From positions 5,539,519 through 5,603,518 of the forward strand of contig NZ_KB911581.1 in NCBI RefSeq assembly GCF_000383595.1: 64,000 bases of DNA, given 5' to 3'. Below the pieces are notes generated by a model that did no database searches, was not told where the DNA came from, and saw nothing but the letters and a program-made list of their open reading frames with translations. The translations under genes and the position numbers were made by a program. Source of the DNA: Streptomyces bottropensis ATCC 25435. Its GTDB lineage: Bacteria; Actinomycetota; Actinomycetes; Streptomycetales; Streptomycetaceae. Below are positions 2,981 through 46,479 of this stretch, one piece after another (positions within the stretch are counted from its first letter, which is position 1; each line of letters starts with the position of its first letter).

Positions 2981-4000
2981 TCACTGCGGAGTCGGCAGGA
3001 CCCAGTGAAGGTCTTCCGTATCGGCGGAAATCCGCCAGGCGTTCAGCAGCCCTGCTGTCGTCATCTGCTGGAGTACGTGGGGCAGTTCCTCGGGTTGGAT
3101 ACCGCATTGGTGGGCTGTCCGGTCGGCGTCGTTCAGTCCGTGGCCGGTTTCGGAATGGCTGTGTGCCGCGAGATAGACCCTTACTACTTGCGGCAGCGGA
3201 CCGAGTCCCCCTGCCTGACCCCGGCAACTGGCGCGCAGCGCCCAGTCAGCTGCGTGACAGCGGTCGGTGCGGGTGGGCGCCTGGCCGAGCAGCCCCGCGT
3301 CCAGTAGCACGGCAGCGACTTTGCCGGTGGCGTGGTCGGGGATCCGGCGCAGCCATCGCGCTTGTTCCAGTTCCCGCCAGGGGGTCGGGTCGGAGCCGAG
3401 CCGGAAGCTGCGCAGCAGGCCCGCGGGAAGGCTGACCTGCATGCTGGCGCTTATGCGCAGTGCGCACTGCAGGGCGATAAGCCGGGTGGCGGGTGAGGTC
3501 CCGGCCGGGAGCGCGGCAGCCAGATAGCTGAGCATGTCCCGGACTCTGGTTTGCCTGTCCGGCTCGCTGCGCCGCTGCCGTCGGCGGCGGGGGCGGAGGG
3601 TGGCTGGCGTCTGTCGGGGGGTGGGCAGGGCGGTGTCGGGTACGACGGCGGCGTGGGCTGTCGCTGCGGCGCAGGCGGTGCAGGTGTCGGTGAGTCGCCA
3701 TACGCGGCCGCCGTGTTCGCAGGCGAGGAGCAGGCGGATGGGGCCGGCGCAGCCGCGGTGGCGGCGGTGCCAGTGGCAGCCGCGTTCGTGGCACTGGCAG
3801 GTCCTCAGGTGGGGCGGGAGGGTGTCGCTGCGGGCGTGGCGTGCGAGGTGGGCGAGGGCGGCCGCGCGGGCGGATACGGCGGGGATGGGGCTGGCGTCGC
3901 GGGGGCACTGCCGGCAGGTGAGAACGAGTCCGCCGGTGTGTGAGCGCAGCTCCACGGTCCAGGCGCGTGGGGTCGCGGGGCATGGTGCGCGCAGCCTCAT
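2981..4000 (-). CDS. Cys/His-rich hypothetical protein
   Basis: I do not recognise this ~339-residue protein. The N-terminal 120 residues are rich in Cys and His (for example LTCRQCPRD, TCQCHERGCHWHRRHRGC, TDTCTACAA), which suggests two or three zinc-binding knuckles. A basic linker (PRRRRQRRS) follows, and the second half is helical. The start at 4000 is chosen because GGAGGG lies close upstream of it; a longer frame exists but has no such site. It is divergent from the XRE regulator at 4167, and the shared spacer carries three copies of a 17-bp motif, so it is probably regulated by that protein. DNA or RNA binding is plausible but unproven. Confidence 0.55.
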   Translation of the reverse strand: MRLRAPCPATPRAWTVELRSHTGGLVLTCRQCPRDASPIPAVSARAAALAHLARHARSDTLPPHLRTCQCHERGCHWHRRHRGCAGPIRLLLACEHGGRVWRLTDTCTACAAATAHAAVVPDTALPTPRQTPATLRPRRRRQRRSEPDRQTRVRDMLSYLAAALPAGTSPATRLIALQCALRISASMQVSLPAGLLRSFRLGSDPTPWRELEQARWLRRIPDHATGKVAAVLLDAGLLGQAPTRTDRCHAADWALRASCRGQAGGLGPLPQVVRVYLAAHSHSETGHGLNDADRTAHQCGIQPEELPHVLQQMTTAGLLNAWRISADTEDLHWVLPTPQ

Positions 4001-4070
4001 GGGCGGGTGGCCCTCCTTATCGGTGCCTCCGCTGGTGTCCGTCCGGGAAGGGGCGGCGGCGGACACCGTA

Positions 4071-4152
4071 GTGCAGACCTCTGCCCTTCAGTTGTCGCTA
4101 CCACCTGGGCAAATAGGGCAGAGGTCTGCACTGACAGGGCAGGGGTCTGCAC
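4071..4152. promoter_or_regulatory. Three-copy 17-bp operator motif between divergent genes
   Basis: The motif AGGGCAGAGGTCTGCAC occurs on the - strand at 4071-4087, on the + strand at 4115-4131 (exact), and again on the + strand at 4136-4152 with one change (AGGGCAGGGGTCTGCAC). The copies sit between a Cys-rich gene reading left and an XRE-family gene reading right. That is the usual place for an autoregulatory operator. Confidence 0.7.
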
Positions 4153-4166
4153 CGTCGGATAGTCGG

Positions 4167-4430
4167 GTGACGATCTTGCCGCCCGATCCGGACCTCAACG
4201 CGCTGCGGCTGGAGCTCGCGCGCCTGCGGGCGGTGCGCGGGTGGACGTATGACGAGCTCGCCGCCCGCAGTGGCCTGGCCAGGCGCACGGTCATCGAGAT
4301 CGAGCAGGGCCGCACCATCGGCACCCTGAAGACCTGGCACGCTCTCGCGCACGCCCTGGGGACTCCGTTCGAGCAGCTCTTCGGCACGCTGTGCCACGAC
4401 CATGATCTTCCCGGATCCGCCGACGGCTGA
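4167..4430 (+). CDS. XRE-family helix-turn-helix transcriptional regulator
   Basis: This 87-residue protein is essentially one Cro/C1-type DNA-binding domain: LRLELARLRAVRGWTYDELA is followed by ARSGLARRTVIEIEQGR (recognition helix) and TLKTWHALAHALGTPFEQLF. The GTG start at 4167 lies just after the third copy of the 17-bp motif. A longer upstream frame runs through the operator and is not credible. It probably represses its own promoter and that of the divergent Cys-rich gene. Confidence 0.85.
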   Translation: MTILPPDPDLNALRLELARLRAVRGWTYDELAARSGLARRTVIEIEQGRTIGTLKTWHALAHALGTPFEQLFGTLCHDHDLPGSADG

Positions 4431-4588
4431 CGGCTTCCCAAGGGTTGCCGCGGATCACCTGATGCAGCGACGGCGAAACGAACGTTCAGGCGTCTCTTCG
4501 CACACCAGTAGCCTCATAAAGGGCCGACCGGGCGACGTGGCGGCGCCAGTTCCGCAGGTGCGGCGTGTTGGCTGGCAGGTTCACGCGT

Positions 4589-5473
4589 ATGCGCTCCACT
4601 CCCTCGTCTTCTGCCCGGCACTGGGACGGCAGCCCCGTCACCGCCCCAGCCCTTCGTTCTTTGCGGGTGAACCCTGGCGGCACCAGCCGGCTGCTGCGCT
4701 GCGGCCAGCACAGCCGTTGCCGTGAGTGCGGCAACCGGATCGAGTGGTACCACCGCAGCGCCCTGCGGATGGTCCGTCTGCACCCGCGCGAACTCCCCGC
4801 CGCCCGGGTACCTGCCGACTGCCGCTGGCACGTCAGTTCCGGCATCGCCCACCCAGCCGGGGACGGCAGCAGCTGGTGCCGCATCCCGCACGCCCTGCTC
4901 TGCCCCGCCAGGGACACTCCCGCGGCAGCCGGGCTGGGAGCGCTGCGCAGAGCGCTCGCGGTGAACACCCGGCGCCTGATCGACGCCGGCACCTTCGTCC
5001 CGCCCGCCGCCCCGCCGGACGGGGCAGTCCCGCAGCAGGCCGTGTGCCGGCCGGCCCGGCCTGTGGTGCAGTTGCTGTACGTCCGCTACCTGGCCGACCG
5101 CCCGGTGGAGGAGATCCAGTGCGTGGCCCTGACCCGGCGCCGCGGCCGCTGTTCCCGCCCGGTCCTCGCTCCCCACATCCCGGCCGGCACCTGGACCTTG
5201 ATGCCCGCCACCTCCTCCGCCACCGGCCAACTGGCACTGCCCGCCGACATGATGGCCGTCTACGACCTCAGCGGCCTTTCCTACGCCGAGCAGCTGCGCT
5301 GGCGCGCCCAGCACTGCCCCCAGCACGCAGCCACAGCCGCCGCACCCGACCTGACCGTGCCGGACTGGGAGCCCTTCGACGCCCTCCTGCACCGTGAGCA
5401 CATCCACACCCGGCTGCCCACCCACAGCCGCTCCGGGCCCTCGGGCTGCGCGCGGAAGGCGGCCCGGCCGTGA
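4589..5473 (+). CDS. DUF6083-type protein
   Basis: The ~294-residue protein begins its conserved part with CGQHSRCRECGNRIEWYHR followed by LHPRELP. I associate this pattern with DUF6083 proteins of streptomycetes: a CxxC-containing N-terminal module of unknown function, often found with regulators and on plasmids. A later Cys pair (GRCSRPVLAPHIP) may complete a metal site. The start is uncertain: ATG at 4589 is taken, and one at 4565 is possible. Its stop overlaps the next start by four bases. Biochemical role is unknown. Confidence 0.6.
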   Translation: MRSTPSSSARHWDGSPVTAPALRSLRVNPGGTSRLLRCGQHSRCRECGNRIEWYHRSALRMVRLHPRELPAARVPADCRWHVSSGIAHPAGDGSSWCRIPHALLCPARDTPAAAGLGALRRALAVNTRRLIDAGTFVPPAAPPDGAVPQQAVCRPARPVVQLLYVRYLADRPVEEIQCVALTRRRGRCSRPVLAPHIPAGTWTLMPATSSATGQLALPADMMAVYDLSGLSYAEQLRWRAQHCPQHAATAAAPDLTVPDWEPFDALLHREHIHTRLPTHSRSGPSGCARKAARP

Positions 5474-5961
5474 CACCCGTGACGCGACACCATGCCGTCG
5501 AGATCCTCCTGACCCGGCCCCTGTCCCCCGGTGAACTCAAGCGCGCCCGGAGGGCCGTGCCGCTGGCCGCGAATGCCGACCGCACCCGGCTGATGGCTGT
5601 GCAGGACGCCCGCAGCCCGGCCCACGCCCTGCACCGGCTGCGGCGCCGCCTGGGCTCACGGCTGCCCATCGACGTGCTGAGCACGCACTACCCGGACCGC
5701 AAAGGGCAGGTGCGGCTCAATTTCGCGTTCAGCCGGAGCGATGATGCCGCCGTCCGGCAGGCAGCGGCCTGCCGGGGCCTGCGGCCCGGGGAGTTCCTCA
5801 GCCGGCGCGTGACCGCGGCCCTCGCTGAGCGGGAGCGGCAGCGCCTTCGCGTGCTGGAGGACCGGCTGCAGGTCCTGCTGGCCGACCACGCCCTCGAAGA
5901 AGTGCTGACCTGCGCCGTCCATGCCCTCAGCCGGCGCCGCCGTTCACCGGCGGCACCGTAA
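5470..5961 (+). CDS. Hypothetical basic helical protein
   Basis: This 163-residue, Arg-rich protein is not assigned to a family. The region around residues 95-120 (DDAAVRQAAACRGLRPGEFL, then SRRVTAALAERERQRLRVLE) resembles a ribbon-helix-helix or other small DNA-binding fold followed by a helix, but this is only an impression. It starts with GTG inside the stop of the DUF6083 gene (GTGA overlap), so the two are coupled and probably act together. Confidence 0.5.
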   Translation: MTPVTRHHAVEILLTRPLSPGELKRARRAVPLAANADRTRLMAVQDARSPAHALHRLRRRLGSRLPIDVLSTHYPDRKGQVRLNFAFSRSDDAAVRQAAACRGLRPGEFLSRRVTAALAERERQRLRVLEDRLQVLLADHALEEVLTCAVHALSRRRRSPAAP

Positions 5962-6019
5962 CGCCCCCTTTCCTGTGAGGGTTCCCTGGCTGAAGGAAGC
6001 CCGGGGGCTCCTCGTCTTC

Positions 6020-7510
6020 ATGCTCGCTGCGGAGTCTTCGTTGCCTACGCCCACCGATGAACAAATCCACGCCACCGACGCCTTCCGCGCCGGCCGCCAC
6101 CTCGTCCTGCAAGCCGGCGCCGGCACGGGCAAGACGGCCACCCTCGTCATGCTCGCCGCCGCCACCAGCCGCCGCGGCCGCTACCTCGCCTTCAACAAGA
6201 GCATCGCCCTCGACGCCGCGGCCCGCTTCCCGCGTACCGTGCACTGCAAGACCGCGCACGCCACCGCCTACGCGGCCCTCGGCCACCGCTACACCCACCG
6301 CCTCAACAGCCCCCGTCAGCCCGCCTGGAAGACCGGCCAGGCGCTCGGCATCACCCGGCCCGTCCGCATCGGCGAGCACGAGATCAGCGCCAGGTCGCTG
6401 TCCAACACCGTGCTGCGCACCGTGACCCGCTTCTGTTACTCCGCCGACCGCACCCTGGCCCGCCACCACGTCCCCACACTGCGCCGTCTGGGAACACCCG
6501 CCGAACACGCCCAGCTCGCCGAGGCGGTCCTGCCGTTCGCCCGCCGCGCCTGGGTCGACCTGCACAGCCCCGACCAGGGAGTGGTCCGCTTCGAGCACGA
6601 CCACTACCTGAAGATGTGGGCCCTGACCGAACCGCGCATCGGCGCCGACTTCCTGCTCCTGGACGAGGCCCAGGACACCAACCCCGTGCTGGAACAGGTC
6701 TTCTCCGCCCAGCGCGACCATACGCAGCTCGTCCTGGTCGGCGATTCCGCCCAGGCCATCTACGGCTGGCGCGGCGCCCGCGACGTGATGACCGGCTTCG
6801 ACGCCACGCACCTCACCCTCACGCGTTCCTTCCGTTTCGGCCCTCTGATCGCCGACCAGGCCAACCGGTGGCTCGAGCTCGCCGAGGCACCCATCCGTCT
6901 GACCGGCAGCGACACCGTCCCCGCCACGGTCGGAGGCCTCGACCGTCCGGACGCGGTGCTGTGCCGCACCAACATCGGCGCCATGACCGAAGTCATGCGC
7001 CTGCTGGCCGACGGCCGGCGCGTCGCCCTGGCCCGCGGCGCACAGGCGCTGGCCGCGCTGGCAATCGCCGCCCGCGACCTCAAAGAAGGCCGCCCCACCG
7101 CCCATCCCGAACTTGTCCTCTTCAGCTCCTGGGGCGAGCTGCAGGAGTATGCCGAACACGACCCCGCAGGCCGTGACCTGCAGCCCTTCGTCAACCTCGT
7201 CGACACCCACGGCCCCGACGCCATCCTCACCGCGATCAACCAGCTCACCGACGAGGAAGACGCCGACGTCACCGTCTCCACCGCCCACACCGCCAAAGGC
7301 CGCGAATGGCCCACCGTCAGAATCGCCGACGACTTCCCCCCGCCCAAGGACACCGACCAGCACGACGTCCAGGGCCGCCCCGTCCCCGAACCCGTCAACG
7401 ACACCGACGCCCGCCTCGCCTACGTCGCCGTCACCCGCGCCCGCCACCACCTCGACCTCGGCGGCCTCTCCTGGATCAACACCCACCCCACCACAGCGAG
7501 CGCGGGCTGA
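6020..7510 (+). CDS. UvrD/Rep-like superfamily 1 DNA helicase
   Basis: The ~496-residue protein has SF1A helicase motifs in order: Q-motif region (PTPTDEQIHATDAF), Walker A LQAGAGTGKTATLV, motif II FLLLDEAQDTNP, motif III LVLVGDSAQAIYGWRGA, motif V TVSTAHTAKGREWPTV and motif VI LAYVAVTRARHHL. It is therefore an ATP-dependent 3'-5' translocase, shorter than UvrD (~720 residues) and without the large 1B/2B insertions. ATG at 6020 starts just ahead of the Q-motif; the longer frame upstream overlaps the preceding gene and is less likely. Similar short helicases are common on Streptomyces plasmids and in defence islands. Confidence 0.85.
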   Translation: MLAAESSLPTPTDEQIHATDAFRAGRHLVLQAGAGTGKTATLVMLAAATSRRGRYLAFNKSIALDAAARFPRTVHCKTAHATAYAALGHRYTHRLNSPRQPAWKTGQALGITRPVRIGEHEISARSLSNTVLRTVTRFCYSADRTLARHHVPTLRRLGTPAEHAQLAEAVLPFARRAWVDLHSPDQGVVRFEHDHYLKMWALTEPRIGADFLLLDEAQDTNPVLEQVFSAQRDHTQLVLVGDSAQAIYGWRGARDVMTGFDATHLTLTRSFRFGPLIADQANRWLELAEAPIRLTGSDTVPATVGGLDRPDAVLCRTNIGAMTEVMRLLADGRRVALARGAQALAALAIAARDLKEGRPTAHPELVLFSSWGELQEYAEHDPAGRDLQPFVNLVDTHGPDAILTAINQLTDEEDADVTVSTAHTAKGREWPTVRIADDFPPPKDTDQHDVQGRPVPEPVNDTDARLAYVAVTRARHHLDLGGLSWINTHPTTASAG

Positions 7511-25014: not shown

Positions 25015-25415
25015 GTATTCCCCATACGCGTGGGGGTCTATCCCTTTTCGCCCGTCTCTACAGCGACCAGTTCCGGGTATTCCCCATACGCGTGGGGGTC
25101 TATCGTACCGAGCTCTGCGCACAGGCCAGACTCACTGAGTCTTCCCCACCGCGTTGGGGGTCATCCCCCCGCCAGCAGGGATCCGGCAGGGTGTTTGGGT
25201 CTTCCCCACACACGGTGGGGCACCAGCCCAAGGCGTGCGCGTCGGCACGGGCAGTCCAAGGATCGAGCGACGCCACCCATGGCGCGGTCAGCAAAGCTGT
25301 CGGCGGCACTCGCCCAGCAGCCCACTTCACTTCTTCCTGCCCTGCGGCAGCAGCACCTCAGTTCCCTCCGCCAGTGGTCACCACCAGGTTGTTCCCCACG
25401 TCGGTTGTGGTTGCC
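25015..25415 (+). CRISPR. CRISPR array A: 4 recognisable type I-E-like repeats plus decayed remnants
   Basis: 29-bp repeats start at 25015, 25077, 25139 and 25199, with 31-33-bp spacers. The first two share GTATTCCCCATACGCG followed by TGGGGGTCTATC. The third and fourth are increasingly changed (CCGCGTTGGGGGTC; ACACACGGTGGGGC). A strongly decayed copy (GTTCCCCACGTCGGTTG) lies at ~25391, three periods further on. Repeat type, period (~61) and leader match arrays B and C, so it belongs to the same type I-E family, though it is 6 kb beyond the transposase genes. An IS5-type element is inserted at its far end. Confidence 0.75.
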
Positions 25416-27211: not shown

Positions 27212-27577
27212 ACGAACGAGGGTGCCGGTCGAGCCCTGCTTCGTGGACTTATTCGGGACTCCGGGGCAACCGGCCCATACGGTTGGGTTGGTTGTGGCGG
27301 GGTGTTCGTTGTTCGACACCTCTGGGAGGGTGGACGTGCCAGCTGCTCCCCAGGTGGGTTACCGGCCGTGGTATCACGATTGCTGCCGGTGCCGTGTTCA
27401 ACGGCACTCAAGATGCCTATGTGGGCGGTGAGTTGAAGGCATGCTGTGTGCCGACGGATTCGGACGCATGCCGGCGGGGTCGGGGTGTTCGTTGGCGGCG
27501 ACACCTTGCCGATGAGGAGGGCATGCGAAGGCCCTCCCGACGATCTCTTGGCCGAGTCCGGGAGGGCCGTGCAGCGC
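27212..27577. other. Intergenic stretch upstream of the DUF6431 gene
   Basis: No gene is recognised. After removal of the two IS elements this DNA joins CRISPR array A. The left end of the Mu/Tn7-like transposon must lie here or further left, but I could not identify it. Confidence 0.4.
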
Positions 27578-28165: not shown

Positions 28166-28261
28166 TCGCCGATCAACACCAACTGCCCCTGATCTTCGCG
28201 GTGTTGTTCCTGACAGCCTCGGCGGGCCCATGACCGTGACGAGACGGTGAGGAAGGTGGAC

Positions 28262-29647
28262 GTGCCGAAGAGAGATGACGACGAGGCAGCCCGGACGGAG
28301 AGAGCCCGGCGGATCGGCCTGTTCCGCTACATGCTCATCCGTGAGGCCGCCGACCCGGGCCTGACCGGCCGTCAGCGTGGTGCTCTGGTGCGCAAACTGG
28401 CCCAGCAGGAGCACATCGACGCCGACGGCCGGCCGGTGCGGATCACCCGGTGGACGCTGGACCGCTGGATCCTGGAGTGGCGCCAGGGCGGCTTCGACGC
28501 GCTGGTGCCCTCCCCGCGTCAGTCCCAGCCCCGCACCCCGCCCGAGGTGGTCGAGCTGGCGATGGCCCTGAAGAAGGAGAACCCGGACCGCACGGCCGCA
28601 CAGGTCAGAAGGATTCTGCGAGCCCAGCTCGGCTGGGCGCCGGACGAGCGCACGCTGCAGCGGATGTTCCACCGCACCGGCCTGGTCGCGCTCAGGACGG
28701 CCAAGCCCGCCCACGCTTTCGGCCGGTTCGAGGCCGACCGGCCCAACGAGCTCTGGGTGGGCGACGCGCTGCACGGGCCGCGGATCGACGGCCGCAAAAC
28801 GTACTTGTTCGCCTTCCTGGACGACCATTCACGGGCAGTGGTCGGGCACCGCTGGGGCTTTATGGAGGACACCGTCCGCCTGGCCGCCGCCCTGCGTCCC
28901 GCGCTCGCCGCCCGCGGTGTCCCGCAGTACATCTACGTCGACAACGGGAGCGCTTTCGTCGACTCGTGGCTGCTGAGGGCCTGCGCGAAACTCGGCATCA
29001 AGCTGGTGCACTCCGCCCCCGGACGCCCCGAAGGACGCGGGAAGATCGAGAGGTTCTTCCGCACCGTGAACGGCGAATTCACCGTCGAGATCGCCTCCGA
29101 CAAGGGCGAGGTCGGCCGGGAGATCAAGGACCTCGCGGAGATGAACCGCCTGTTCACCGCCTGGGTCGAGAACATCTACCACCGCCGTGTCCACAGCGAG
29201 ACCAGACAGGAACCGCTTCAGCGGTGGATGGCCGCGGCCCCCTTCCCCGTCCCGCGGCCGGCGGACCTGGCCGAAGCCTTCCGCTGGTCCGAGCACCGCC
29301 GGGTCGCCAAGACCGCGACCGTCTCGCTGCACGGCAACCGCTACCAGGTCGAACCCGAACTGGTCGGCCACAAGGTCGAGCTGGTCTTCGACCCCTTCGA
29401 CCTGACCTTCCTGCGGGTCCGCCTCGACGGCAAGGACGCGGGCACCGCCACCCCGTTCCAGATCAACCGGCACTCCCACCCCAAGGCCAGGCCCGAGATC
29501 CCCGCCGAGGAACCCAAGCCGGCCACCGGCATCGACTACCTCGGCCTGGTCGACAACGCCCACTCCAACCACCTCGGACAGAAGATCAACTACGCGGCAC
29601 TGGCCGAGCCGCCCGCCGAGAGCCTCGACCTAACCGACCAGGGCTGA
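28262..29647 (+). CDS. rve/DDE transposase (Mu/TniA/TnsB-like)
   Basis: The ~461-residue transposase has N-terminal HTH regions (RITRWTLDRWILEWRQGGFD; TAAQVRRILRAQLGWAPDE). A retroviral-integrase core shows catalytic Asp in ELWVGDALHGP, Asp in YIYVDNGSAFVDSW and Glu in EGRGKIERFF. A C-terminal beta-barrel-like part (KTATVSLHGNRYQVEPELVG) follows. The GTG at 28262 with AGGAAGG upstream is preferred over GTG 28247. It is distinct in sequence from the DDE transposase at 32387-33973, so two different systems lie side by side. Confidence 0.85.
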   Translation: MPKRDDDEAARTERARRIGLFRYMLIREAADPGLTGRQRGALVRKLAQQEHIDADGRPVRITRWTLDRWILEWRQGGFDALVPSPRQSQPRTPPEVVELAMALKKENPDRTAAQVRRILRAQLGWAPDERTLQRMFHRTGLVALRTAKPAHAFGRFEADRPNELWVGDALHGPRIDGRKTYLFAFLDDHSRAVVGHRWGFMEDTVRLAAALRPALAARGVPQYIYVDNGSAFVDSWLLRACAKLGIKLVHSAPGRPEGRGKIERFFRTVNGEFTVEIASDKGEVGREIKDLAEMNRLFTAWVENIYHRRVHSETRQEPLQRWMAAAPFPVPRPADLAEAFRWSEHRRVAKTATVSLHGNRYQVEPELVGHKVELVFDPFDLTFLRVRLDGKDAGTATPFQINRHSHPKARPEIPAEEPKPATGIDYLGLVDNAHSNHLGQKINYAALAEPPAESLDLTDQG

Positions 29648-29651
29648 GCCC

Positions 29652-29876
29652 ATGGCCAGGCCCTCCACCAGCGGCAACTGGACCGCCTTCCTGGCCGAGC
29701 TGCACGGCTTCTTCGAGGTCTGCGACGCCTGCGTCGACCAGGCGCTGGCCGCCCACTTCGGCTTCGACACCGCCGTCGACTGGATCACCGTCTCGCTGGA
29801 GCTGTTCACCGAACACCTCCAGGCCCCACCCGACCAGCCCTCACCTGCGAACTTCCCGGAGAATCACCGTGATTGA
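29652..29876 (+). CDS. Small helical protein between transposase and ATPase
   Basis: The 74-residue acidic helical protein (SGNWTAFLAELHGFFEVCDA, VDQALAAHFGFDTAVDWI) begins 4 bases after the transposase stop, and its end overlaps the ATPase start. Position in the operon suggests an accessory factor linking transposase and ATPase. No family recognised. Confidence 0.6.
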   Translation: MARPSTSGNWTAFLAELHGFFEVCDACVDQALAAHFGFDTAVDWITVSLELFTEHLQAPPDQPSPANFPENHRD

Positions 29877-30681
29877 GAAACTGCAGGCCCACTACGGGTT
29901 CGAGCGCATGCCCTTCGGCCGCAACCTCGCGCCGGGCATGCTGCACCGGCACGACTCCCACAACCAGGCCGTCGCCCGCATCTCCTGGTGCATCGCCGAA
30001 CGCTCCATCGGCGTGGTCACCGGCGAGGTCGGCGCCGGCAAAACCGTCTCCGTCCGCACCTGCCTGGACGCCCTCGACCCGTCGAAGTACACCGTCATCT
30101 ACATCCCCAACCCGCTGATCGGGGTCCGCGGCATCCACGAGGAGATCGTGGGCGCCTTCGGCCAGACCCCCTCTCACCTGGGCTCCCGCCTCGCCGTCCA
30201 GACGGCCAGGGCCCTGCTGTCCGAGCGGGAGGAGCGCGGACGCACCCCCGTCCTCGTTCTGGACGAGGCCCACCTGCTCTCCTACGAACAGCTGGAAACC
30301 GTCCGTATGCTCACCAACCAGGGCATGGACCAGGACTCCCCACTGTCCTGCCTGCTGGTCGGCCAGCCCACCCTGAGACGGACCATGAAGCTCGCCGTCC
30401 TGGCCGCTCTGGAGCAGCGGACTGCTCTGCGTTACACGATGCCGGGCATGACCTCGACCGAGACAACCAGCTACGTCGCCCACCACCTGAAGATCGCCGG
30501 GCGCCCGGACCAGCTGTTCACCGAGGACGCCCTCACGCTGATCCACACCACCTCGCGCGGCTATCCCCGGGCGGTCAACAACCTTGCCCTGCAGGCCCTG
30601 GTCGCCGCGTTCGCCACCGGCAAGAACCTCGTCGACGAGGCCGCCGCCCGCGCGTCCGTGAGCGAGGTGGTCGGCGACTGA
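29869..30681 (+). CDS. ExeA/TniB-like AAA ATPase of the transposon
   Basis: The 270-residue ATPase starts IEKLQAHYGFERMPFGRNL. Walker A is VVTGEVGAGKTVSVRTCLD, Walker B is VLVLDEAHLLSYEQLE, sensor 1 is LSCLLVGQPTLRRTM, and a sensor 2-type TTSRGYPRAVNNLALQAL follows. ATPases of this type act as MuB/TnsC-like target-selection proteins for DDE transposases. The GTG at 29869 lies within the preceding small gene, as usual for coupled translation. Confidence 0.85.
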   Translation: MIEKLQAHYGFERMPFGRNLAPGMLHRHDSHNQAVARISWCIAERSIGVVTGEVGAGKTVSVRTCLDALDPSKYTVIYIPNPLIGVRGIHEEIVGAFGQTPSHLGSRLAVQTARALLSEREERGRTPVLVLDEAHLLSYEQLETVRMLTNQGMDQDSPLSCLLVGQPTLRRTMKLAVLAALEQRTALRYTMPGMTSTETTSYVAHHLKIAGRPDQLFTEDALTLIHTTSRGYPRAVNNLALQALVAAFATGKNLVDEAAARASVSEVVGD

Positions 30682-30763
30682 GATGTCCGTTTCACACTTC
30701 CCGGTGTCCCGCCGGTCTCAGAGCACACGTGGATGTCAGTGCGTTGAGCTAACGTCACGCGGC

Positions 30764-31246
30764 ATGAGTGATCAACAGCATGAGGTCATCGTCCGCCGTG
30801 CCCAGCCAGCCGATGTGGATGGCCTGGTCGCATGCAGCAGCGCGCTGTTTGCCGAAGATGCCGGGACGAGAGATCCGAGCGTCGACGTGAGTTGGCCTCG
30901 CGAGTTCGGACCTGCACGTTTCGCTGCCGGCATAGACGACCCGACCAGGCTCCTTCTCGTCGCGGACTGCGACGGGCAGGTCGTCGGACACCTCACCGGG
31001 TCCGTGGCTGAAGGATCTGCGATGAGGCCGGTCAAGGTCGCGACGCTCGTGAGCATGTATGTCCAGCCGGCCCACCGCCGCGGCGGGCTCGGAGCACGTT
31101 TAGTCGCGCAGTTCTCGGCCTGGGCGAAGGAAGCGGGGGCCGAACTCGCCGAGGTGACCGCGTACTCCAGCAACGCCGATGCGATCCGCTTCTACGAACG
31201 GAACGGTTTCGCGAGTCAGTCAGTGACGTTGCAGACCGCTTTGTGA
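30764..31246 (+). CDS. GNAT-family N-acetyltransferase
   Basis: The 160-residue protein has EVIVRRAQPADVDGLVAC at the N terminus, LLLVADCDGQVVGHLTGSVA, the acetyl-CoA loop VSMYVQPAHRRGGLGARLV and the terminal SNADAIRFYERNGFASQ. All are classic GNAT features. The ATG at 30764 is the start that fits family length. A strong hairpin follows at 31269-31306. It separates the two convergent transposition modules and may be cargo of either. Substrate unknown. Confidence 0.8.
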   Translation: MSDQQHEVIVRRAQPADVDGLVACSSALFAEDAGTRDPSVDVSWPREFGPARFAAGIDDPTRLLLVADCDGQVVGHLTGSVAEGSAMRPVKVATLVSMYVQPAHRRGGLGARLVAQFSAWAKEAGAELAEVTAYSSNADAIRFYERNGFASQSVTLQTAL

Positions 31247-31268
31247 GATCAGGCCGCAGCCGGCATCG

Positions 31269-31306
31269 CGGCCCGGGGATCGGCGCTCGCGCTGATCCCC
31301 GGGCCG
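31269..31306 (+). terminator. Hairpin terminator after the GNAT gene
   Basis: CGGCCCGGGGATC (31269-31281) and its exact complement (31294-31306) form a 13-bp stem with a 12-base loop, starting 23 bases after the GNAT stop. There is no T-run, as is common in streptomycetes. Confidence 0.75.
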
Positions 31307-31451
31307 AACCACCGGCACCTCGCCGAAGAAAACGACACCTTGCCGACGACCGCCCCGCCAGGATGCCCACCGGCGGGGCTTCGCCGTCACACCCCGTCGG
31401 CATCGTGAACGCCGCCTTCGTCGGCATTTTCAGCGCCGGGCAACACCGGTG

Positions 31452-31523: not shown

Positions 31524-32390
31524 TCAGTCGGGGTGACGTTGGGTGGGGTCGAGGCGGCTGAGGACGGCGCGCACAAGGTCCCGGCTGTAATGAGGTAGCG
31601 GTGCGGCTGCGCTGTGTGGGGTGGGCGGGTTCGTCGGACCTGTCCTATCGGCCTCCTGTGGGCCGGGGCCGTCGTGCTGTTCCCAGAGCAGGTAGGTGAT
31701 TTTGGCCCACTGGCGGAAGTTGCCGTGGCAGGCGACGTCGTCGATCCACAGCAGTTCGTCGGTGGGTACGTGTGCCCACAGCGGGTGGTACTCGGGGATG
31801 ACGGTGAGGACTTCTGCGGGTGTGAGGGGCTTGTAGCGCTGCCAGACGAGGATGCGGGAATCCAGCGCCGGACGGTTCTTGATCTTCTGGTAGCAGGTTT
31901 CGGCTCCGACCAGGACGACGGCGAGGCGGGTGTCCTCGTCGTCCCAAAGCTCGCGGATGAATTCGAAGGCCCGGGTGTCCAGCCACTGCGCTTCGTCGAC
32001 GACCAGGACGCGCGAGGTCTCTGACAGTGCTTCCTTGAGCATGGCTTCGCAGCGGGTGCTGTTGAGGGGGGCCTCGCCCGGTAGGTCGAGCTTTTTGTAC
32101 AAGGCGGCGCGTAGGGCCTGGATTTTGGCGGAGCCGACTTTCATGCGGAGCGTGGTGTGGGGAGCGAGGTCGTCGAGGTGGCTGTTGACGGCGAAGGTTT
32201 TGCCCAGGCCGACGCCGCCGTGGACGCACATGATGGCGCCCTTGCCGGCGTCGGCGTTGAGGGTGGTGACGAGGTTGGCGTAGGTCTCTGCGCTGGCCTG
32301 GGTCAGCATGGCGCGGGCGCCGGGCAGGCCCATGTAGTGATAGTTGGGGTCGGTGGCCGGCTGGCTCTTGGGCGTGGTCGGGTGGGTCAC
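31524..32390 (-). CDS. TnsC/MuB-like AAA+ ATPase in the cas operon
   Basis: The 288-residue ATPase is encoded last in the type I-E operon. Walker A is VHGGVGLGKTFAVNSHLDD (residues 57-75), Walker B is SRVLVVDEAQWLDT (Asp-Glu at 132-133), and AVVLVGAETCYQKIKN is the sensor 1 strand. It is close in size to MuB/TniB and lacks the long extensions of Tn7 TnsC. Such ATPases form filaments on target DNA and recruit the DDE transposase. The GTG start overlaps the transposase stop (GTGA), so the two are coupled. Its place after cas6e, where cas1-cas2 normally stand, implies a role in choosing the target together with Cascade; this is inference. Confidence 0.85.
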   Translation of the reverse strand: MTHPTTPKSQPATDPNYHYMGLPGARAMLTQASAETYANLVTTLNADAGKGAIMCVHGGVGLGKTFAVNSHLDDLAPHTTLRMKVGSAKIQALRAALYKKLDLPGEAPLNSTRCEAMLKEALSETSRVLVVDEAQWLDTRAFEFIRELWDDEDTRLAVVLVGAETCYQKIKNRPALDSRILVWQRYKPLTPAEVLTVIPEYHPLWAHVPTDELLWIDDVACHGNFRQWAKITYLLWEQHDGPGPQEADRTGPTNPPTPHSAAAPLPHYSRDLVRAVLSRLDPTQRHPD

Positions 32391-37428: not shown

Positions 37429-39051
37429 TCAGCGGCTGCGCAGGCGCAGCTGGGCCAGGGCGGTGGCGACGGCTTCCGCGGCGCGGAAGTGCTGGGCGAT
37501 CGCCGGGCGGGTAGCGGTGCGCAGGGCGTCGATGGCGTCCGCGGCGAACGCCGCGCGGGCGCTGCGGGCGGGTTCGTTCAGCAGGTTCCAGAAGGTGGCC
37601 TCGGCGCGGGGCCAGTACAGGGTGCGGGCGCTGCGGGTCCAGGGCGGCAGGTGGCGGGGGCTGCCGGCGTTGGTGGTCTGCTTCCAGGCTTCCTGGGAGA
37701 GGCGGTCGAGGTGGGCGCCGATCTCTTCGGCGGCCTTGCGGCATGCGGCGATCCGCTCGGCCGCGGCTGGGTCGCATTCCTGCATCCAGGGCCAGATCGG
37801 CGGGGTCAGGGCTGTGTACCAGGTGCGGTTGGTGGTCTTGCCGTCCTGGTCGAATCCGTAGACCCGCACCCGCAGGGCGGCGCGCAGGTCGGGGGGCAGG
37901 TCGTTGAGGGTCGTGAAGGCGTCGGGTCGCTGGACGGTGTAGCGGCCTTTTCCGCTCTTTGCCTGGGTGCCTTTGCGGTCGTCCTCGTCGCCCGCCAGCA
38001 GCAGCGCGTCCAGGTCGCGCCACAGGGCCCGGTCGGCGTCCGCGCGGCGTGGTCGGTGGCGTCGGGTGACCGGTTCGTCCGCATGGAAGTGATGGATGAG
38101 GTACGGGTCGAGGGCCGGGAGTTTCTTCTGGGTGGCCCAGGTCAGGTAGGCGTCGGTCACGTGGCGTCCGTCCGGTGCGGGGATGAGGAGGACGGCGTGA
38201 CGCGAGCGGCCGGTCAGCAGACGGCCCGGTGAGGACACCGGCGGCGGCGCGGTATCGGGGTCCGGGCCCTCGACGGGGTCACCGTCGTCGTCGGGGTCGG
38301 GGTGGGGCAGCGGTTCCTCCCACGGGCAGTGGTCCACTGTGTCCGGCCAGGACGAGTCGGGCTTGGGGATGCCGGCCAGGAGGGTCTCGTACAGGGTCCG
38401 GCCCAGGGGGTGGAAGGACAGACTCGAGCGCAGTGGGCCGGCTTTAGCCCGGTTGAGGGAGCGATCGCCTACGGTGCGCACGGACCATTGTCCGGCCGCG
38501 CCGTAGTAGTGGTGGATGAGCATGTGCCACAGCGCCTGGGCGCTGGGCACCGGCTGCGGGTCGGTGTCCGTATGCGGGCTGAGCCAGGAAAGGTTGTTGC
38601 CCTCGGGACGGCCGAAGACCAGCTTGTTGACGCCGGCGCGTTGCGGGCACTGGCTGGCCAGTCTCGGGTCTTGCAGGAACGGCCGCGCCGGGTGGAACAG
38701 GTCCCAGATGTAGGCGTCGAAGTAGGCGTGAACGGCGTCGGGGTCGAACCCGGCGGGATGCGCCAGTAACTCCCTTCGGCGGGCAGCCCACTGACGTGCC
38801 GTCATGCGCCCCGGTCCTCGTGCGTCCAGGCCGCTGACCCGTGCGGCCATGACCACGAGTAGGCGCAAGACGGCAGATGCCGTCGGCGGGACGGGAAGTG
38901 CCAGGTCCTTGATGAGGTGGGCGCGCAGCAGCACGTCCCGCCATCCCAGCTCCTCCTGGTGCCCGTCCGGGAAGAGGACGGGAATACACGGTTCTTTGTC
39001 GGTCTCAAAACGCGGGGAAGACACACAGGATCCATTGCAGGGTGCGAACAA
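37429..39051 (-). CDS. cas8e: Cas8e (Cse1), Cascade large subunit
   Basis: The 540-residue large subunit recognises the protospacer-adjacent motif and, in ordinary type I-E systems, recruits Cas3. The family start (CIPVLFPDGHQEELGWRDVL) is followed by LRLLVVMAARVSGL, DAYIWDLFHPARPFLQDPRL, GKTTNRTWYTALTPP and the C-terminal four-helix bundle (AGSPRHLPPWTRSARTLYWP). Length is normal. Nothing is fused to it and no TniQ-like domain is present. It is the first gene of the leftward operon ending in the transposase ATPase. Confidence 0.9.
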   Translation of the reverse strand: MFAPCNGSCVSSPRFETDKEPCIPVLFPDGHQEELGWRDVLLRAHLIKDLALPVPPTASAVLRLLVVMAARVSGLDARGPGRMTARQWAARRRELLAHPAGFDPDAVHAYFDAYIWDLFHPARPFLQDPRLASQCPQRAGVNKLVFGRPEGNNLSWLSPHTDTDPQPVPSAQALWHMLIHHYYGAAGQWSVRTVGDRSLNRAKAGPLRSSLSFHPLGRTLYETLLAGIPKPDSSWPDTVDHCPWEEPLPHPDPDDDGDPVEGPDPDTAPPPVSSPGRLLTGRSRHAVLLIPAPDGRHVTDAYLTWATQKKLPALDPYLIHHFHADEPVTRRHRPRRADADRALWRDLDALLLAGDEDDRKGTQAKSGKGRYTVQRPDAFTTLNDLPPDLRAALRVRVYGFDQDGKTTNRTWYTALTPPIWPWMQECDPAAAERIAACRKAAEEIGAHLDRLSQEAWKQTTNAGSPRHLPPWTRSARTLYWPRAEATFWNLLNEPARSARAAFAADAIDALRTATRPAIAQHFRAAEAVATALAQLRLRSR

Positions 39052-39659: not shown

Positions 39660-42521
39660 TCAGTCTTCGGTGTGGACGAGTCCCAGGGCGTCGTCGAGGT
39701 GCAGACGGTGCCGGCCGAAGCGCACCGGCCGGGAGGGGTCGCCGGCGTCCTGCGGGAGCAGGACGAGGTCGGCGAGGAGGGCGTGGCTGCGCCAGGAGGC
39801 GGGGATGTGGTGGTCTCTTGTGCGGCCGGCGACCCAGGCGGCGGGGACGGGCAGGGTGTGCTGGAGGATCGTGCGGATCTGGGCGGTGGTCGGTTTGCGG
39901 TGCTCGGGCAGCGGCCGGGTGCCGGCCGCGTCCAGAGTGAGGCGGCCGCCGGACATGCGGTAGACGGGCAGGAGACGGCGGGGCATGGCGCCCAGGCGGG
40001 TGGCGGCCTCGCGGGGGTGCAGGTTCTGGCGGTGCAGGTCGGACAGCGAGAGGGTGTCGTGCCAGGCCGGCACGAGGTGCAGGGCACTGTGGTGTTCCTC
40101 GGTGCGGGTGCGGGCCTGGTGCAGGGTGTGGCTGCGGCGCAGGGCGGCGTCGGTGCGGGCGAGGGCGTCGGCGTCTCCGTGTACGGCTTCCACGAGCTGC
40201 TGCACGTCGTCGGGCAGGGTGAGCGGCTGCTCGGGCCGTCGGGCGAGGTAGGCGGCGGTGGCGAGCGGCAGGAACGGGGAGTCCAACGGGCGCCAGGCGG
40301 GCGGCAGGAGGGTGCGGCCGCGGTGGTCGGTGGGCTCCAGGACGATCAGGCGGGGGACGTCGCCGCAGAGCCAGTCGGGCCGCTTGATGTGGTCGAAACG
40401 CCACAGGCGGCCCAGGCGTTGCAGGAGGGTCTGCAGGGGGGCCAGGTCGCTGACCATGACGTCAACGTCGACGTCCAGGCTCATGTCCAGCAGGCTGGTG
40501 GTGATGACCACCAGCCTTCGAGGGCGCTCGCCGGTCGCCGACAGGGCGGTGCGGACGCGGCGGGTGAGGGCCTCACGTTGGAAGCCCGGCAGGCGGGCGT
40601 GCAGCAGGAGCAGCTGGCCGTCGGGGCCGCCGTCCGGCCAGTTGAGGGCGGTTGTCAGGTGTGCGTAGGTGGTCTGGGCGTCGGCCATGGTGGCGCAGTA
40701 GACGGCCGCGCAGCCGCCCGAGCGGGCGACGGGGGCGATCTCCTGGGTGATGCGCCCCAGTCGGCTCTCGCGGGCCGGGGCGTCCTCGGGGTCGGTGCAG
40801 GAGGGGTGGCGCACCGGGTGGAGACGGAGGTCGGCGCGGCGGCGGTGGCGGTCGGCGTGGGCGTCGGCCGCGGCTGGGTCGATGCGGGTGAGGGAGGCGT
40901 CTGAGGCGGCGGCGTAGAGCCAGCCCGGGTAGGGGGGCCGGCAGTCCAGGTGGGCTGTTGCGGGGTGCGGGTGGCCGGCGCCGTCGAGATAGCTGCGCAC
41001 GAGCTGGCTGCTGATGTGGCCGGGCAGAGTCGCGGACAGCAGCACCACGGGGCAGCCCAGGGCGCCGAGCCAGTGCAGCAGCCGGGACAGTGTCTGCCGC
41101 ATGAACGGGGGCAGGGCGTGGACTTCGTCGACGATGACGGTCCGCCCGCACAGGGCCAACATGCGCAGGGCGCTGAAGCGGACCGGAAGGGCGGCCATGA
41201 GGGCCTGGTCGTGGGTGGCGACGGTGAACTGGGCCAGCAGGGCCCTGTCCCAGCCGCGCAGCCAGCCGTCGGGCACCGTGACGCGTTCTTCGGGCCGCTC
41301 CCCCGCAGTCGGCCTGCCCTCATCACCGTAGCCGTCGTCGCTGTCGGGCCAGTAGGCGTCGCTGGTGGAGGGTTCACGGGCGGCCAGGCGGTGGTCGGTG
41401 TAGGCGGTGTTGTTGTAGCTGTGACTGTGGACCAGGGAGACCGGGGCGTGCTCGGGATGGTGGGCCGCAACGTAGGCCTCGAGGAGGTCGTAGGCGGCAT
41501 CCGTGGTGGCCATGGTCGGCAGCAGCCACAGAATGCCTGAGGTGTCACCGGAGGCGTTGAAGATCCGTGCTGCTTCCAGCGCGGTGACGCTCTTTCCGCC
41601 ACCGGTGGCATCGGTGACCACCAGGATGCCGGGCCCCTTCTCCCCCACCACGGCGGGCAGTTGCCCGATCATCGAGGCCTGCAGGGCGTTCGGCCGCTCC
41701 AGGCCGCCGTGCGCCTGGGTGAACGGCACCTGCGGCAGAGTGATACGGACAAGCCCGGACTCCTCGACCACGCCGGGAGCGTCCCGGACGGCCAGGGAAA
41801 AGTGCTCGCCGGCGCCAAAGGCCGGCGCCTGGGCCTTGGGCAGCCAGTAGTGGCGCTGGCTGGCCAGCCGGTCCGCGATGACGCCGACCCCGGTGATCAG
41901 CACGGCCGCCGGCACCGACACGTCCGAGGGCACCGCGGTGGCGCCGGTCAGATGACGCAACAGGGCGAAGTAGCGGCGGCGCACGTCCTGCCAGGCCGAC
42001 CCGCCCAAGGCGAGGTTGACTCGAGATGCCTTGGCTGCGCCATCGATGTCGACCTGCAGGAACCGGCCGTGATGGCCGCCCAGGATCTGCGCAATCAACA
42101 CACCGGGGCTGTCGGAAGTGTCCGCCGGATAGCCTGCCTCGGCCAGCAGGTGCAGCACACTGTGCATGGACGCCCGCTCATGCGGCATACGCCGCCAGTT
42201 ACCGGTGTCGCTGCGCAGGGTGTCACTGACCCGGGCCCAGGGATGCGCCTCCTGTTCCTGGAACGCGGACAACTTGCCCAGATCGTGCAGGCCAGCGATG
42301 AACATCACCTGGCAGCGCGCCTGAGCCAGAGTGAGCCCCAGTCCGGCGGCGATCAGCCGGCGCTGGCCGCGGGTCAGGTACCCGTCCCAGACCGCACCCG
42401 CGAGCGCCGCGACATCCAGCAGATGGAACAGCAGCGCATACACCGCCCGCTCTCCGCGGTCGAACTTGCCCCACGGCGACAGGTTGATTCCGTCGCGCCG
42501 GGCATCCTCCCGCACCCCCAC
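39660..42521 (-). CDS. cas3: Cas3, HD nuclease-helicase of type I-E
   Basis: The 953-residue protein has an N-terminal HD nuclease domain (LLFHLLDVAALAG; His79-Asp80 in FIAGLHDLGKLSAF; RASMHSVLHLLAEAG; His-His at 150-151 in ILGGHHGRF). An SF2 helicase follows: Walker A VTDATGGGKSVTALEAARIF, motif II VIVDEVHALPPFM, motif III VVLLSATLPGHI, motif V SLDVDVDVMVSDL and motif VI LLQRLGRLWRFD. Length and order are normal and no key residue is missing. In ordinary systems it degrades DNA marked by Cascade. It is transcribed in the same direction as cas8e but set apart by 608 bases containing module L. Confidence 0.92.
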   Translation of the reverse strand: MGVREDARRDGINLSPWGKFDRGERAVYALLFHLLDVAALAGAVWDGYLTRGQRRLIAAGLGLTLAQARCQVMFIAGLHDLGKLSAFQEQEAHPWARVSDTLRSDTGNWRRMPHERASMHSVLHLLAEAGYPADTSDSPGVLIAQILGGHHGRFLQVDIDGAAKASRVNLALGGSAWQDVRRRYFALLRHLTGATAVPSDVSVPAAVLITGVGVIADRLASQRHYWLPKAQAPAFGAGEHFSLAVRDAPGVVEESGLVRITLPQVPFTQAHGGLERPNALQASMIGQLPAVVGEKGPGILVVTDATGGGKSVTALEAARIFNASGDTSGILWLLPTMATTDAAYDLLEAYVAAHHPEHAPVSLVHSHSYNNTAYTDHRLAAREPSTSDAYWPDSDDGYGDEGRPTAGERPEERVTVPDGWLRGWDRALLAQFTVATHDQALMAALPVRFSALRMLALCGRTVIVDEVHALPPFMRQTLSRLLHWLGALGCPVVLLSATLPGHISSQLVRSYLDGAGHPHPATAHLDCRPPYPGWLYAAASDASLTRIDPAAADAHADRHRRRADLRLHPVRHPSCTDPEDAPARESRLGRITQEIAPVARSGGCAAVYCATMADAQTTYAHLTTALNWPDGGPDGQLLLLHARLPGFQREALTRRVRTALSATGERPRRLVVITTSLLDMSLDVDVDVMVSDLAPLQTLLQRLGRLWRFDHIKRPDWLCGDVPRLIVLEPTDHRGRTLLPPAWRPLDSPFLPLATAAYLARRPEQPLTLPDDVQQLVEAVHGDADALARTDAALRRSHTLHQARTRTEEHHSALHLVPAWHDTLSLSDLHRQNLHPREAATRLGAMPRRLLPVYRMSGGRLTLDAAGTRPLPEHRKPTTAQIRTILQHTLPVPAAWVAGRTRDHHIPASWRSHALLADLVLLPQDAGDPSRPVRFGRHRLHLDDALGLVHTED

Positions 42522-42712: not shown

Positions 42713-43168
42713 GTGTTTCCCCACAGCGTGGGGGTCTTTCCAGCAGTGCGGCGAGCTGTGCCATTCGCAGGCCGTCTTCCCCACACGCGTGGGGGGGTTC
42801 GTCCGCGCCGGTGAACACGACGAGGCCACATTCGACGTCTTCCCCACACGCGTGGGGTCTGTCCGCCGTCCGCGACCGTCACCACACCGATGCTGGGTCT
42901 TCCCCACGTGCGTGGAGGTCTGTCCAGGGTGTTGATACTGCCGAAGGTCCGCACAACGTCTTCCCCATACCCGTGGGGGTCTGCCATCGTCCAAGGTGAG
43001 GCCGACGGCGGGGTCCACGGCTTTTCTACCCTCACGTGGGGGTCCGTCCTGCAGCACGTCACCGTTCTCGCCCAATCTGCCGTCTTCCCCACACGTGTGG
43101 GGTCGTCCCACCCCGTAGTCCTTCTGCGTCTTCTTCGTGATGCCTTCCACACGCGTGGGTTCACCGCG
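42713..43168 (+). CRISPR. CRISPR array B: 8 degenerate type I-E-like repeats
   Basis: 28-31-bp repeats start at about 42713, 42774, 42837, 42897, 42958, 43020, 43082 and 43140, with a 60-63-bp period and ~32-bp spacers. The consensus is GTCTTCCCCACACGCG followed by TGGGGGTCTGTCC, with a CCCCAC/GTGGGG stem. Only a few copies are close to consensus; the sixth (TTTTCTACCCTCACG) and the last (TGCCTTCCACACGCG) are strongly changed. It lies divergently just upstream of cas3. The spacers appear unrelated to one another. Confidence 0.9.
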
Positions 43169-43443: not shown

Positions 43444-44133
43444 ATGGTCGAGATGAGCCCGCAGCAGGCGCGGGAGTTCTGGAAGGCACTGATGGACAAC
43501 GCGTCCTCGCTGGTCACCGACGCCCACACGCTGCTGACGGCAGGGTCCTTCGGGCGGGCGCGGTCCCTCACCGTCCTCGCGCAGGAGGAACTCGGGAAAG
43601 CACTGTGGATCTATGACGCCTTCCAAACCGCCTGGAGCCAGGGCGATGGAATGTCACGGACGGTGGACGCGCTGGCTCAGCACGGGCGAAGCCACACGAA
43701 GAAGTACCTTGCGTCCGTCGTCTTCGGAGACGAACTCGCCGAGTTCTGGGGTGACTACAGTGCCGTGCCCGGGGAGGGATCGGGCTATGCGGCATGGGAG
43801 GAAGCGCACCGCAAAGGCCAGGAGGAGGCCGAGTTCGCCGCCGGTGAGGCCAACCTTGCCAAGCAGCAGGGCTTCTACGTGGATCGCGGCGCGGATGGCA
43901 CCGTCTCCTCCCCGACGGACATGGAAGCCGGCACCACGGCGGACGACCTGCAAACGGCCGCGCGCGTGATCGAGATGCTGCTCATCAGCGACCACAACCG
44001 CATGAAATCGGCTGCTACGCCGTATGACAGCACGCACGCCCAGCAGTTTCGGCTGCTGCCCATCTCCCACCCGGATGACTGGGCAGCATCCTCCGACGGG
44101 CCCGACCGTCCGGTCGAATACAGCGGCGAGTAG
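43444..44133 (+). CDS. AbiV-family abortive-infection protein
   Basis: The 229-residue protein shows the AbiV pattern of a helical HEPN-like fold: FWKALMDNASSLVTDAHTLL, then GSFGRARSLTVLAQEELGKA and LWIYDAFQTAW, with a second helical half (DLQTAARVIEMLLISDHNRM). AbiV proteins block phage growth by stopping translation in Lactococcus. It lies between arrays B and C, on the + strand, with GGGCAGGGAAG upstream, and may be defence cargo of the CRISPR-transposase locus. The catalytic residues of HEPN nucleases (RxxxxH) are not obvious. Confidence 0.7.
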   Translation: MVEMSPQQAREFWKALMDNASSLVTDAHTLLTAGSFGRARSLTVLAQEELGKALWIYDAFQTAWSQGDGMSRTVDALAQHGRSHTKKYLASVVFGDELAEFWGDYSAVPGEGSGYAAWEEAHRKGQEEAEFAAGEANLAKQQGFYVDRGADGTVSSPTDMEAGTTADDLQTAARVIEMLLISDHNRMKSAATPYDSTHAQQFRLLPISHPDDWAASSDGPDRPVEYSGE

Positions 44134-45573: not shown

Positions 45574-46365
45574 ATCTTCCCCGTACACGCGGGGGTCGTT
45601 CCTCAAGAACCACCGGGACCACTCGGAATCCTCCGTCTTCCCCGTACACGCGGGGGTCTTCCCAGCTCCTCACAGCTGCCGAGGGAGTAGTCGCCGTCTT
45701 CCCTTACGTCTGCGGGGTCTGCCGTTCGCCAACCGGGCACAGCTGTCCGTCGTCGCATTCCCCACACGCATGGAGATCGTTCCCTCTCATGCACCCAGGT
45801 AGCCCAGCTGGAGGTCTTCCCATATGTATGAGGGTCCATCGCGCAGCAGGTAGCGTGCCAGTGATTGAGGATTGCGCTCCCCACGCGTGCGCGGGGGGGT
45901 CCTTTCGGGCTGGATCCGCCTGACTACCCAAAACAGCCCTCTCCGTTCTTCAGAGCCCCAGGTCACGAAGAGTCTTCCCCACACGCGTGGGGGTCTGCCC
46001 GAAGCAGGCCGAGCTGCGCTGGAGCGCTTCGCGTCTTCCCCACCACGCGTGGGGGTCTGCCCACTGGCCGATGCACGCCGACCGCGGCGCCTTCATCTGC
46101 CGCACACGCGTGGGGGTCTTTCCTCTTCCTGTGCGTCACCGCGTTGGTCGCGAGTGTCTTCCCCACCCGCGTGGGGGTCTTTCCGCCCAGCCTACGCGGC
46201 ACCATTCGCCCGCGAGGCTTCCCCGCGCCCGTGGGGGTCTGTCCGCCGTGAACCCACCAGACCTCGCTCTGTGTTGGTCTTCCTCGCGCCCGCGGGGGTC
46301 TCTCCACGGTGACGCCTCCCCGGTCGTCCAGCCGCGCCTTTTCGCCACGCGCGTGGCGGTCAAGC
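45574..46365 (+). CRISPR. CRISPR array C: 13 degenerate type I-E-like repeats
   Basis: Repeats start at about 45574, 45635, 45696, 45755, 45814, 45874, 45972, 46033, 46095, 46156, 46216, 46277 and 46336. The usual period is 59-62 bases; one interval (45874-45972) is 98 bases, suggesting a lost or unrecognisable repeat. The first two share CCCCGTACACGCGGGGGTC; later ones have CCCCACACGCGTGGGGG or variants. Several copies keep the hairpin through paired changes, most clearly the last (GCCACGCGCGTGGC). The fourth to sixth are strongly diverged. Confidence 0.9.
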
Positions 46366-46479
46366 AATGAGGCGGGTATCTCAGCCCCTCACTCATGTCG
46401 AGCAGAGTCTCAGGATCGCCCCCAGCTCTCGCCCTGCAAGAACAAAAAGCAGCAGGTCAGATGACCAGTCTCTATGGCC

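Follow-up and report, generated by a model that had tools for sequence, protein, structure and literature searches.

A type I-E5 locus of Streptomyces with an intact Cas3 beside a TnsB-like transposase, and guides of its family that match genes of other telomeric elements

Among CRISPR-associated transposons (CASTs), those of type I-F3 use TnsA and lack Cas3. An initial annotation of the DNA analyzed here took the lack of Cas3 to hold for all known CASTs, a premise that is outdated: a CAST variety without TniQ-TnsD, named I-E5, in which the HD domain of Cas3 is active, is already described in the accessible text of PMC12669027. The same text ties I-E5 to telomeric transposons, citing Hsieh 2025 (Science eadp1973), and mentions that Cas3 is also active in some I-D CASTs. 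In addition, an I-E variant of the Streptomycetaceae that carries tnsB-tnsC was presented by Faure 2019, where the pair was proposed as an adaptation module, as related in the accessible part of PMC12231136.

Judged by its gene content, the locus studied here is a new member of I-E5, a rare type, with an architecture that is already in print. It lies in a stretch of 64,000 nucleotides, referred to below as the window (G000:C1:5539519-5603518), on a Streptomyces chromosome record of 8.96 Mb. As the initial annotation had noticed, Cas3 is encoded beside a transposase: a minus-strand type I-E operon in the order cas3-cse1-cse2-cas7-cas5-cas6 is followed by the genes of a TnsB-like transposase and then a TnsC-like ATPase. 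The features of the window are as follows, with the arrays on the plus strand.

39660..42521, minus strand: cas3 (HD nuclease and helicase), 953 aa; Pfam and PDB matches, residues compared in 18 relatives
37429..39051, minus strand: cse1/cas8e open reading frame, real start possibly more internal; Pfam CRISPR_Cse1, 187 bits
36705..37394, minus strand: cse2/cas11; Pfam CRISPR_Cse2, 41 bits
35513..36703, minus strand: cas7e; Pfam Cas_CT1975, 305.9 bits
34725..35519, minus strand: cas5e, start inferred (in-frame ATG); Pfam Cas_Cas5d, 119 bits
34021..34728, minus strand: cas6e; Pfam CRISPR_assoc, 155.3 bits
32387..33973, minus strand: TnsB-like DDE transposase, 528 aa, at the place of cas1-cas2; rve and Mu-transpos_C
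31524..32390, minus strand: TnsC/TniB-like AAA ATPase, 288 aa, reading frame overlapping the stop codon of the transposase gene; AAA_22, 64.3 bits
31452..31480, no strand assigned: GC-rich hairpin directly 3' of the ATPase gene, kept in relatives (sequence and comparison)
42713..43113, plus strand: CRISPR array adjoining cas3, 7 diverged repeats
45574..46369, plus strand: second CRISPR array, 11 diverged repeats
25015..25230, plus strand: third, small CRISPR array, 4 diverged repeats
2981..7510, no strand assigned: module of a 361-aa unknown protein, a DUF6083 protein, a 163-aa protein, and a UvrD-like helicase

Without TniQ, the initial annotation reasoned, target choice would need direct contact between Cascade and the ATPase; no obvious extra domain was apparent in the Cascade proteins of the window, as judged by their lengths. 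A HEPN_AbiV-like gene is located between two of the arrays (43444-44133), and the gene at 11083-14223 encodes a probable polymorphic toxin, an RHS-repeat protein that carries a pretoxin HINT domain. The DUF6083 module recurs next to many I-E5 loci and was absent from all sister-clade loci fetched. In other I-E5 elements (L050, L055, and L058), the DUF6083 gene is matched by a guide of the relative L051.

The initial annotation had described Cas3 as keeping its HD domain and helicase motifs, and every residue checked was indeed present. The protein contains the Pfam domains Cas3_HD (121.9 bits), Cas3-like_C_2, and Cas3_C, and it aligns over its full length with the Cas3 chains 6c66 and 4qqw (E 2e-111). 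The HD residues H33, H79, D80, H114, H150, H151, and D217, which we take to be metal ligands, align with those of both chains, and the helicase motifs I, II, III, and VI are represented by GxGK, DExH, SAT, and QRxGR, respectively. Conservation was compared among 18 Cas3 proteins, from 14 full-length loci together with the window, G091, G068, and G118. The core helicase residues were kept in all 18 and the complete set of seven HD residues in 16. All seven were replaced in the remaining two, which belong to a single lineage: L066 (Streptomyces sp. MnatMP-M17) and L067 (Streptomyces sp. SID12488). Pairwise dN/dS was 0.31 for the whole of cas3 and 0.17 for the HD part alone between these two strains; six other pairs of relatives gave 0.18-0.35 for the HD part and 0.18-0.28 for the transposase. 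The low values between these two strains and their intact helicase residues indicate that the loss of the HD site is real and restricted to one lineage, and is not a decay of the whole gene. Overall, Cas3 is intact here and, as the dN/dS values of the relatives indicate, under purifying selection.

The partner proteins are conserved as well. The catalytic residues of the transposase (D159, D231, and E267) are shared with relatives, its best PDB match is TnsB (E 1e-24), and the Walker A and B motifs of the ATPase were conserved in 18 of 18 proteins. A homologue of the transposase was found in 48 of 150 Streptomyces genomes, and cas5-cas6 directly preceded it in seven of the 30 loci returned. 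These seven Cascade-linked transposases made up one side of a branch among the 30, with a support of 100/99. A scan of species genomes yielded 79 loci, with Cascade genes directly before the transposase in 19; 14 of these encoded a full-length cas3, and the other five (L053, L055, L060, L065, and L082) were either cut by contig ends or damaged. The remaining transposases were located beside one or two ATPases, mostly without Cascade, and many were near chromosome ends. One I-E5 locus, L173, is carried by a linear plasmid (NZ_CP134205.1, 452 kb) from Streptomyces sp. BB1-1-1, and at L117 and L087 a different and more distant I-E system was found 3-8 kb from sister-clade transposase genes. That Cascade and the transposase are chance neighbors, or a decaying relic, would agree with the degenerate arrays described below and with the damaged look of L053, L055, and L082. 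However, the adjacency persists over about 40-87% transposase identity with invariant catalytic residues, and dN/dS is low for the cas3, transposase, and ATPase genes, so that this explanation is hardly credible.

Neither TniQ nor TnsA had been recognizable to the initial annotation in the window, and profile searches extended both absences to the whole genome. TniQ (PF06527) had 0 matches here, where the same search was positive in 65 of 150 Streptomyces genomes, and TnsA (PF08722) also had 0, with two of the seven genomes searched being positive. Among the seven Cascade-linked genomes, TniQ was missing from G000, G091, G097, and G118, and in G034, G028, and G068 it was on another contig or megabases away. 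Similarly, no Cas1 profile match was found near the locus, and six of the seven genomes were without Cas1. The one Cas1 match in this genome belongs to a separate, canonical I-E system with near-perfect repeats and two arrays of its own, which lies about 74 kb past the window (fetched locus L049, G000:C1:5667001-5687000).

With TnsB and TnsC encoded at the place of cas1-cas2, the pair could be an alternative spacer-adaptation module, the idea of Faure 2019 as conveyed in the accessible part of PMC12231136. The arrays of near relatives do differ: between the window and L050, the DNA of the cas region is 98% identical while the arrays are mostly different. On the other hand, the arrays of five I-E5 genomes had mean pairwise repeat identities of 0.69 (window), 0.71, 0.71, 0.76, and 0.76, as computed from repeats gathered with a profile that missed strongly decayed ones; the Cas1-bearing system that shares its genome with the window reached 0.996 and 0.986. 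Repeats as diverged as these indicate that spacers are not arriving with fresh repeat copies, and hence that the transposase is no ordinary adaptation module. Sister-clade transposase-ATPase pairs also exist without any Cascade, and a role in adaptation is very improbable. Spacers were often homologous in register between strains (61 pairs at shift 0 versus 9 at four other shifts), with no pairs found after shuffling. Covariation in the repeat hairpin was weak in the window (p 0.02) and not significant in four other arrays. A small remnant of two repeat-like units was observed downstream of the ATPase gene in L051 and L056, at about 12730-12820.

The boundaries of the element were searched for by comparison with relatives. 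Homology runs past the ATPase terminator and ends at differing points; on the ATPase side it reaches 31446 and resumes at 27394. The gap of 27395-31445 was considered as the end of the element and rejected, as it is a separate nested transposon, whose inverted ends (TGTT...AACA) enclose genes for a TniA-like rve protein, an AAA ATPase, and a GNAT acetyltransferase, and which is flanked by the 9-bp direct repeat CCGGTGCCG. The site without it was seen in the relatives L051, L052, L053, L054, and L056. The alignment of nine close relatives and an empty-site search in 26 genomes revealed neither ends of the element's own nor a target-site duplication or an empty site; with the right flank as query, the latter search returned mainly one conserved gene.

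In this record dnaA is found at 1.2 kb, which indicates that the record is rotated; it is at 1.1 kb in G118 and central in G091 and G068. A tap gene precedes the window by 26 kb. The window is therefore most likely in a chromosome-end region and not in the interior. The link of the locus to telomeric transposons is indirect, through the sister-clade transposases often found near chromosome ends, the nearby tap gene, and the rotated record.

Of 329 spacers, 308 remained once the duplicates from two loci that had been fetched twice were removed. These were searched against 1.09 Mb of sequence from 96 fetched loci lacking an I-E5 array, at a cut-off of ≤6 mismatches. Matches to these other telomeric elements were found for 58 of the 308 spacers, or 44 of 261 spacer families, and for 0 of 308 after shuffling. 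One of AAG, AAC, AAT, or TAG was just upstream in 36 of the 44 target-bearing families, compared with 2.0% of positions, defining an AAN/TAG PAM. The target-bearing families were distributed as follows.

Terminal helicase-HA group: 13 families, one group member being TniQ-HA
TnsC: 7 families
TnsB: 7 families
Tap: 7 families (NCBIfam telomere_Tap, 1104.7 bits)
Tap-like: 4 families
TniB-like: 3 families
Other: 3 families

An assignment of target cluster 0 to TniQ was rejected, as its members are mostly terminal helicases with HA domains. Six matches of a first count (60 spacers) were attributed to remnants of arrays or to shared flank and discarded, namely L051_1, L053_1, window_3, window_6, L067_5, and L058_18; the later count is limited to loci without an I-E5 array, where window_6 recurs with another target. 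The matches followed the wobble phase in 34 of 36 PAM-bearing families, for which PAM supply explains a part (61% expected; p 5e-6 against that); these phases and the target counts were taken unmasked, as masking every sixth position favors one codon phase.

The locus itself is spared, with the best spacer match there at 8-13 mismatches, and none of the 308 spacers matches its own flanks at ≤7 mismatches. In the window, one of 20 spacers was matched (6 mismatches, a TnsB-like gene, AAC), given which its own system may be ageing. None of the six spacers detected in G034 matches the intact sister-clade transposase of that genome at ≤9 mismatches. Spacer 11 of the window has a near match on its own chromosome (L143), and the family it forms with spacers of L050 and G091 matches an RNA ligase gene in G266 (L157); neither site has an AAN PAM, and both were set aside.

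In a search of PLSDB, 60 Streptomyces plasmid records were matched by the L040 array; for one record, H25, the match is largely one of array homology. Among 18 rows checked, the distance from the match to a replicon end was at most 20 kb in 15 and at most 3 kb in 12, with matches on the terminal helicase of SLP2 and other plasmids and on a small gene after tap, which is annotated as a putative terminal protein in one record matched by L059. The arrays of L058, L059, L067, L042, and L035 also have matches on such telomere-proximal genes, among other, repeat-based matches. A plasmid search with L046:1380-8200 was discounted for a cold-shock gene inside the query. Searches against phages were negative with two of the window arrays and with L040 (E 0.1 or E 1), and L046 gave only a match at E of about 0.9. 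At the level of sequence, the guide matches of the family support an RNA-guided targeting of rival telomeres. No account of these targets was found in the literature searched, which did not reach Hsieh 2025; that work may already report the target set or the HD-dead lineage, and no priority is claimed for either.

In the favored reading, a transposon associated with telomeres would have taken over a type I-E effector (Cascade and Cas3), putting its own TnsB and TnsC genes in place of cas1-cas2, and the set of guides would be old and hardly renewed. We consider it somewhat probable that the locus is such an I-E5 element, with guides aimed at rival telomeres. This proposal builds on the gene content, the conservation of catalytic residues, the monophyly, the array decay, the target set with its PAM, and the avoidance of the element's own genes, all directly observed. 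Across the family, the genes that guides match lie close to the termini of other linear replicons: those for the terminal helicase, tap, tpg, and the tnsB/tnsC of rival telomeric transposons. Cascade bound at such genes may have two outputs. Cas3 could degrade the rival, a function that selection would have retained in most lineages, and TnsC-TnsB could be recruited for insertion near the rival's end. Cas3 might conceivably also clear cointegrates or open target DNA, as the initial annotation proposed. Against the proposal stand the missing element ends and empty site, the lack of guides to its own flanks, the single matched spacer of the window, and the G034 spacers that miss the sister-clade transposase.

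Pure interference would need the first output only: the I-E system would be working immune cargo that turns its guides and Cas3 against linear plasmids and telomeric transposons that compete with it and destroys them, while TnsB-TnsC only move the element. The retained HD domain in 16 of 18 Cas3 proteins, the low dN/dS, and guide matches that have an I-E type PAM, fall on the rivals' core genes, and spare the guides' own locus are all consistent with this reading. However, the HD-dead lineage keeps its helicase motifs, a low dN/dS, and as many matching guides (targets for 11 of 36 spacers versus 47 of 272 elsewhere), which suggests that guides remain useful without cleavage. Additionally, adaptation genes are gone and the TnsB-TnsC pair lies within the cas operon as one clade. 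In an exploratory comparison, 11 of the 13 families aimed at the terminal helicase group had their guides on the opposite strand from the gene (p 0.003 above PAM supply, uncorrected), and Tap guides shared the strand of the gene in seven of seven (p 0.048 above PAM supply, uncorrected), a bias that plain cutting would not need and that was absent from TnsB and TnsC guides. We regard pure interference as rather unlikely.

The strand bias also invites a bolder version of the targeting of rival telomeres. On linear plasmids, 11 of 16 guides are oriented with the PAM-distal side outward, those on TnsC and Tpg and one helicase guide being reversed, and a table of orientations among the matches listed within 20 kb of an end, compiled after part of the data had been seen, contains 97 outward and 39 inward rows. 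The I-E5 elements might be RNA-guided raiders of telomeres, in which TnsC-TnsB insert the element between target and telomere on the PAM-distal side, Cas3 removes the rival inward, and the HD-dead lineage is a helicase-only intermediate toward a Cas3-free CAST. This is a tentative idea, possible without being probable, and the orientation bias could alternatively result from strand-biased spacer acquisition.

I-E5 is an awkward case among CASTs, with a cutting enzyme beside an inserting one, and the HD-dead sister lineage with its working-looking guides provides a natural experiment that separates cutting from insertion. The target list supplies ready protospacers and a PAM for assays. Together, the data suggest that the competition for the ends of linear bacterial chromosomes is fought with CRISPR guides.

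Compared with known systems, the locus departs from canonical type I-E, which has cas1-cas2 in the locus, in that no Cas1 profile match lies nearby. Tn7-like CASTs of the I-F3 and I-B2 type need TniQ and TnsA, both absent here. Type I-F3 CASTs, which use TniQ unlike this locus, share with the I-E5 family the guides on conserved genes and the tolerance of wobble variation (PMC11406308, accessible text). CasMu-I likewise combines Cascade with Mu-type transposase genes, but it is of subtype I-A, has lost cas3, and contains CasMuC, according to the accessible text of PMC10910872. The Streptomycetaceae I-E variant, as far as it is described in the accessible part of PMC12231136, resembles the locus in its cas3-cas8e-cse2-cas7-cas5-cas6 order, tnsB-tnsC, and lack of cas1-cas2 and of terminal structures, while the repeat divergence found here speaks against the adaptation module proposed for it. 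The closest match is the I-E5 CAST, which shares the I-E Cascade, HD-intact Cas3, transposase genes, lack of TniQ, and the telomeric-transposon link; no architectural difference was found from its description in the accessible text of PMC12669027, to which the HD-dead sub-lineage and the survey of guide targets are added here.
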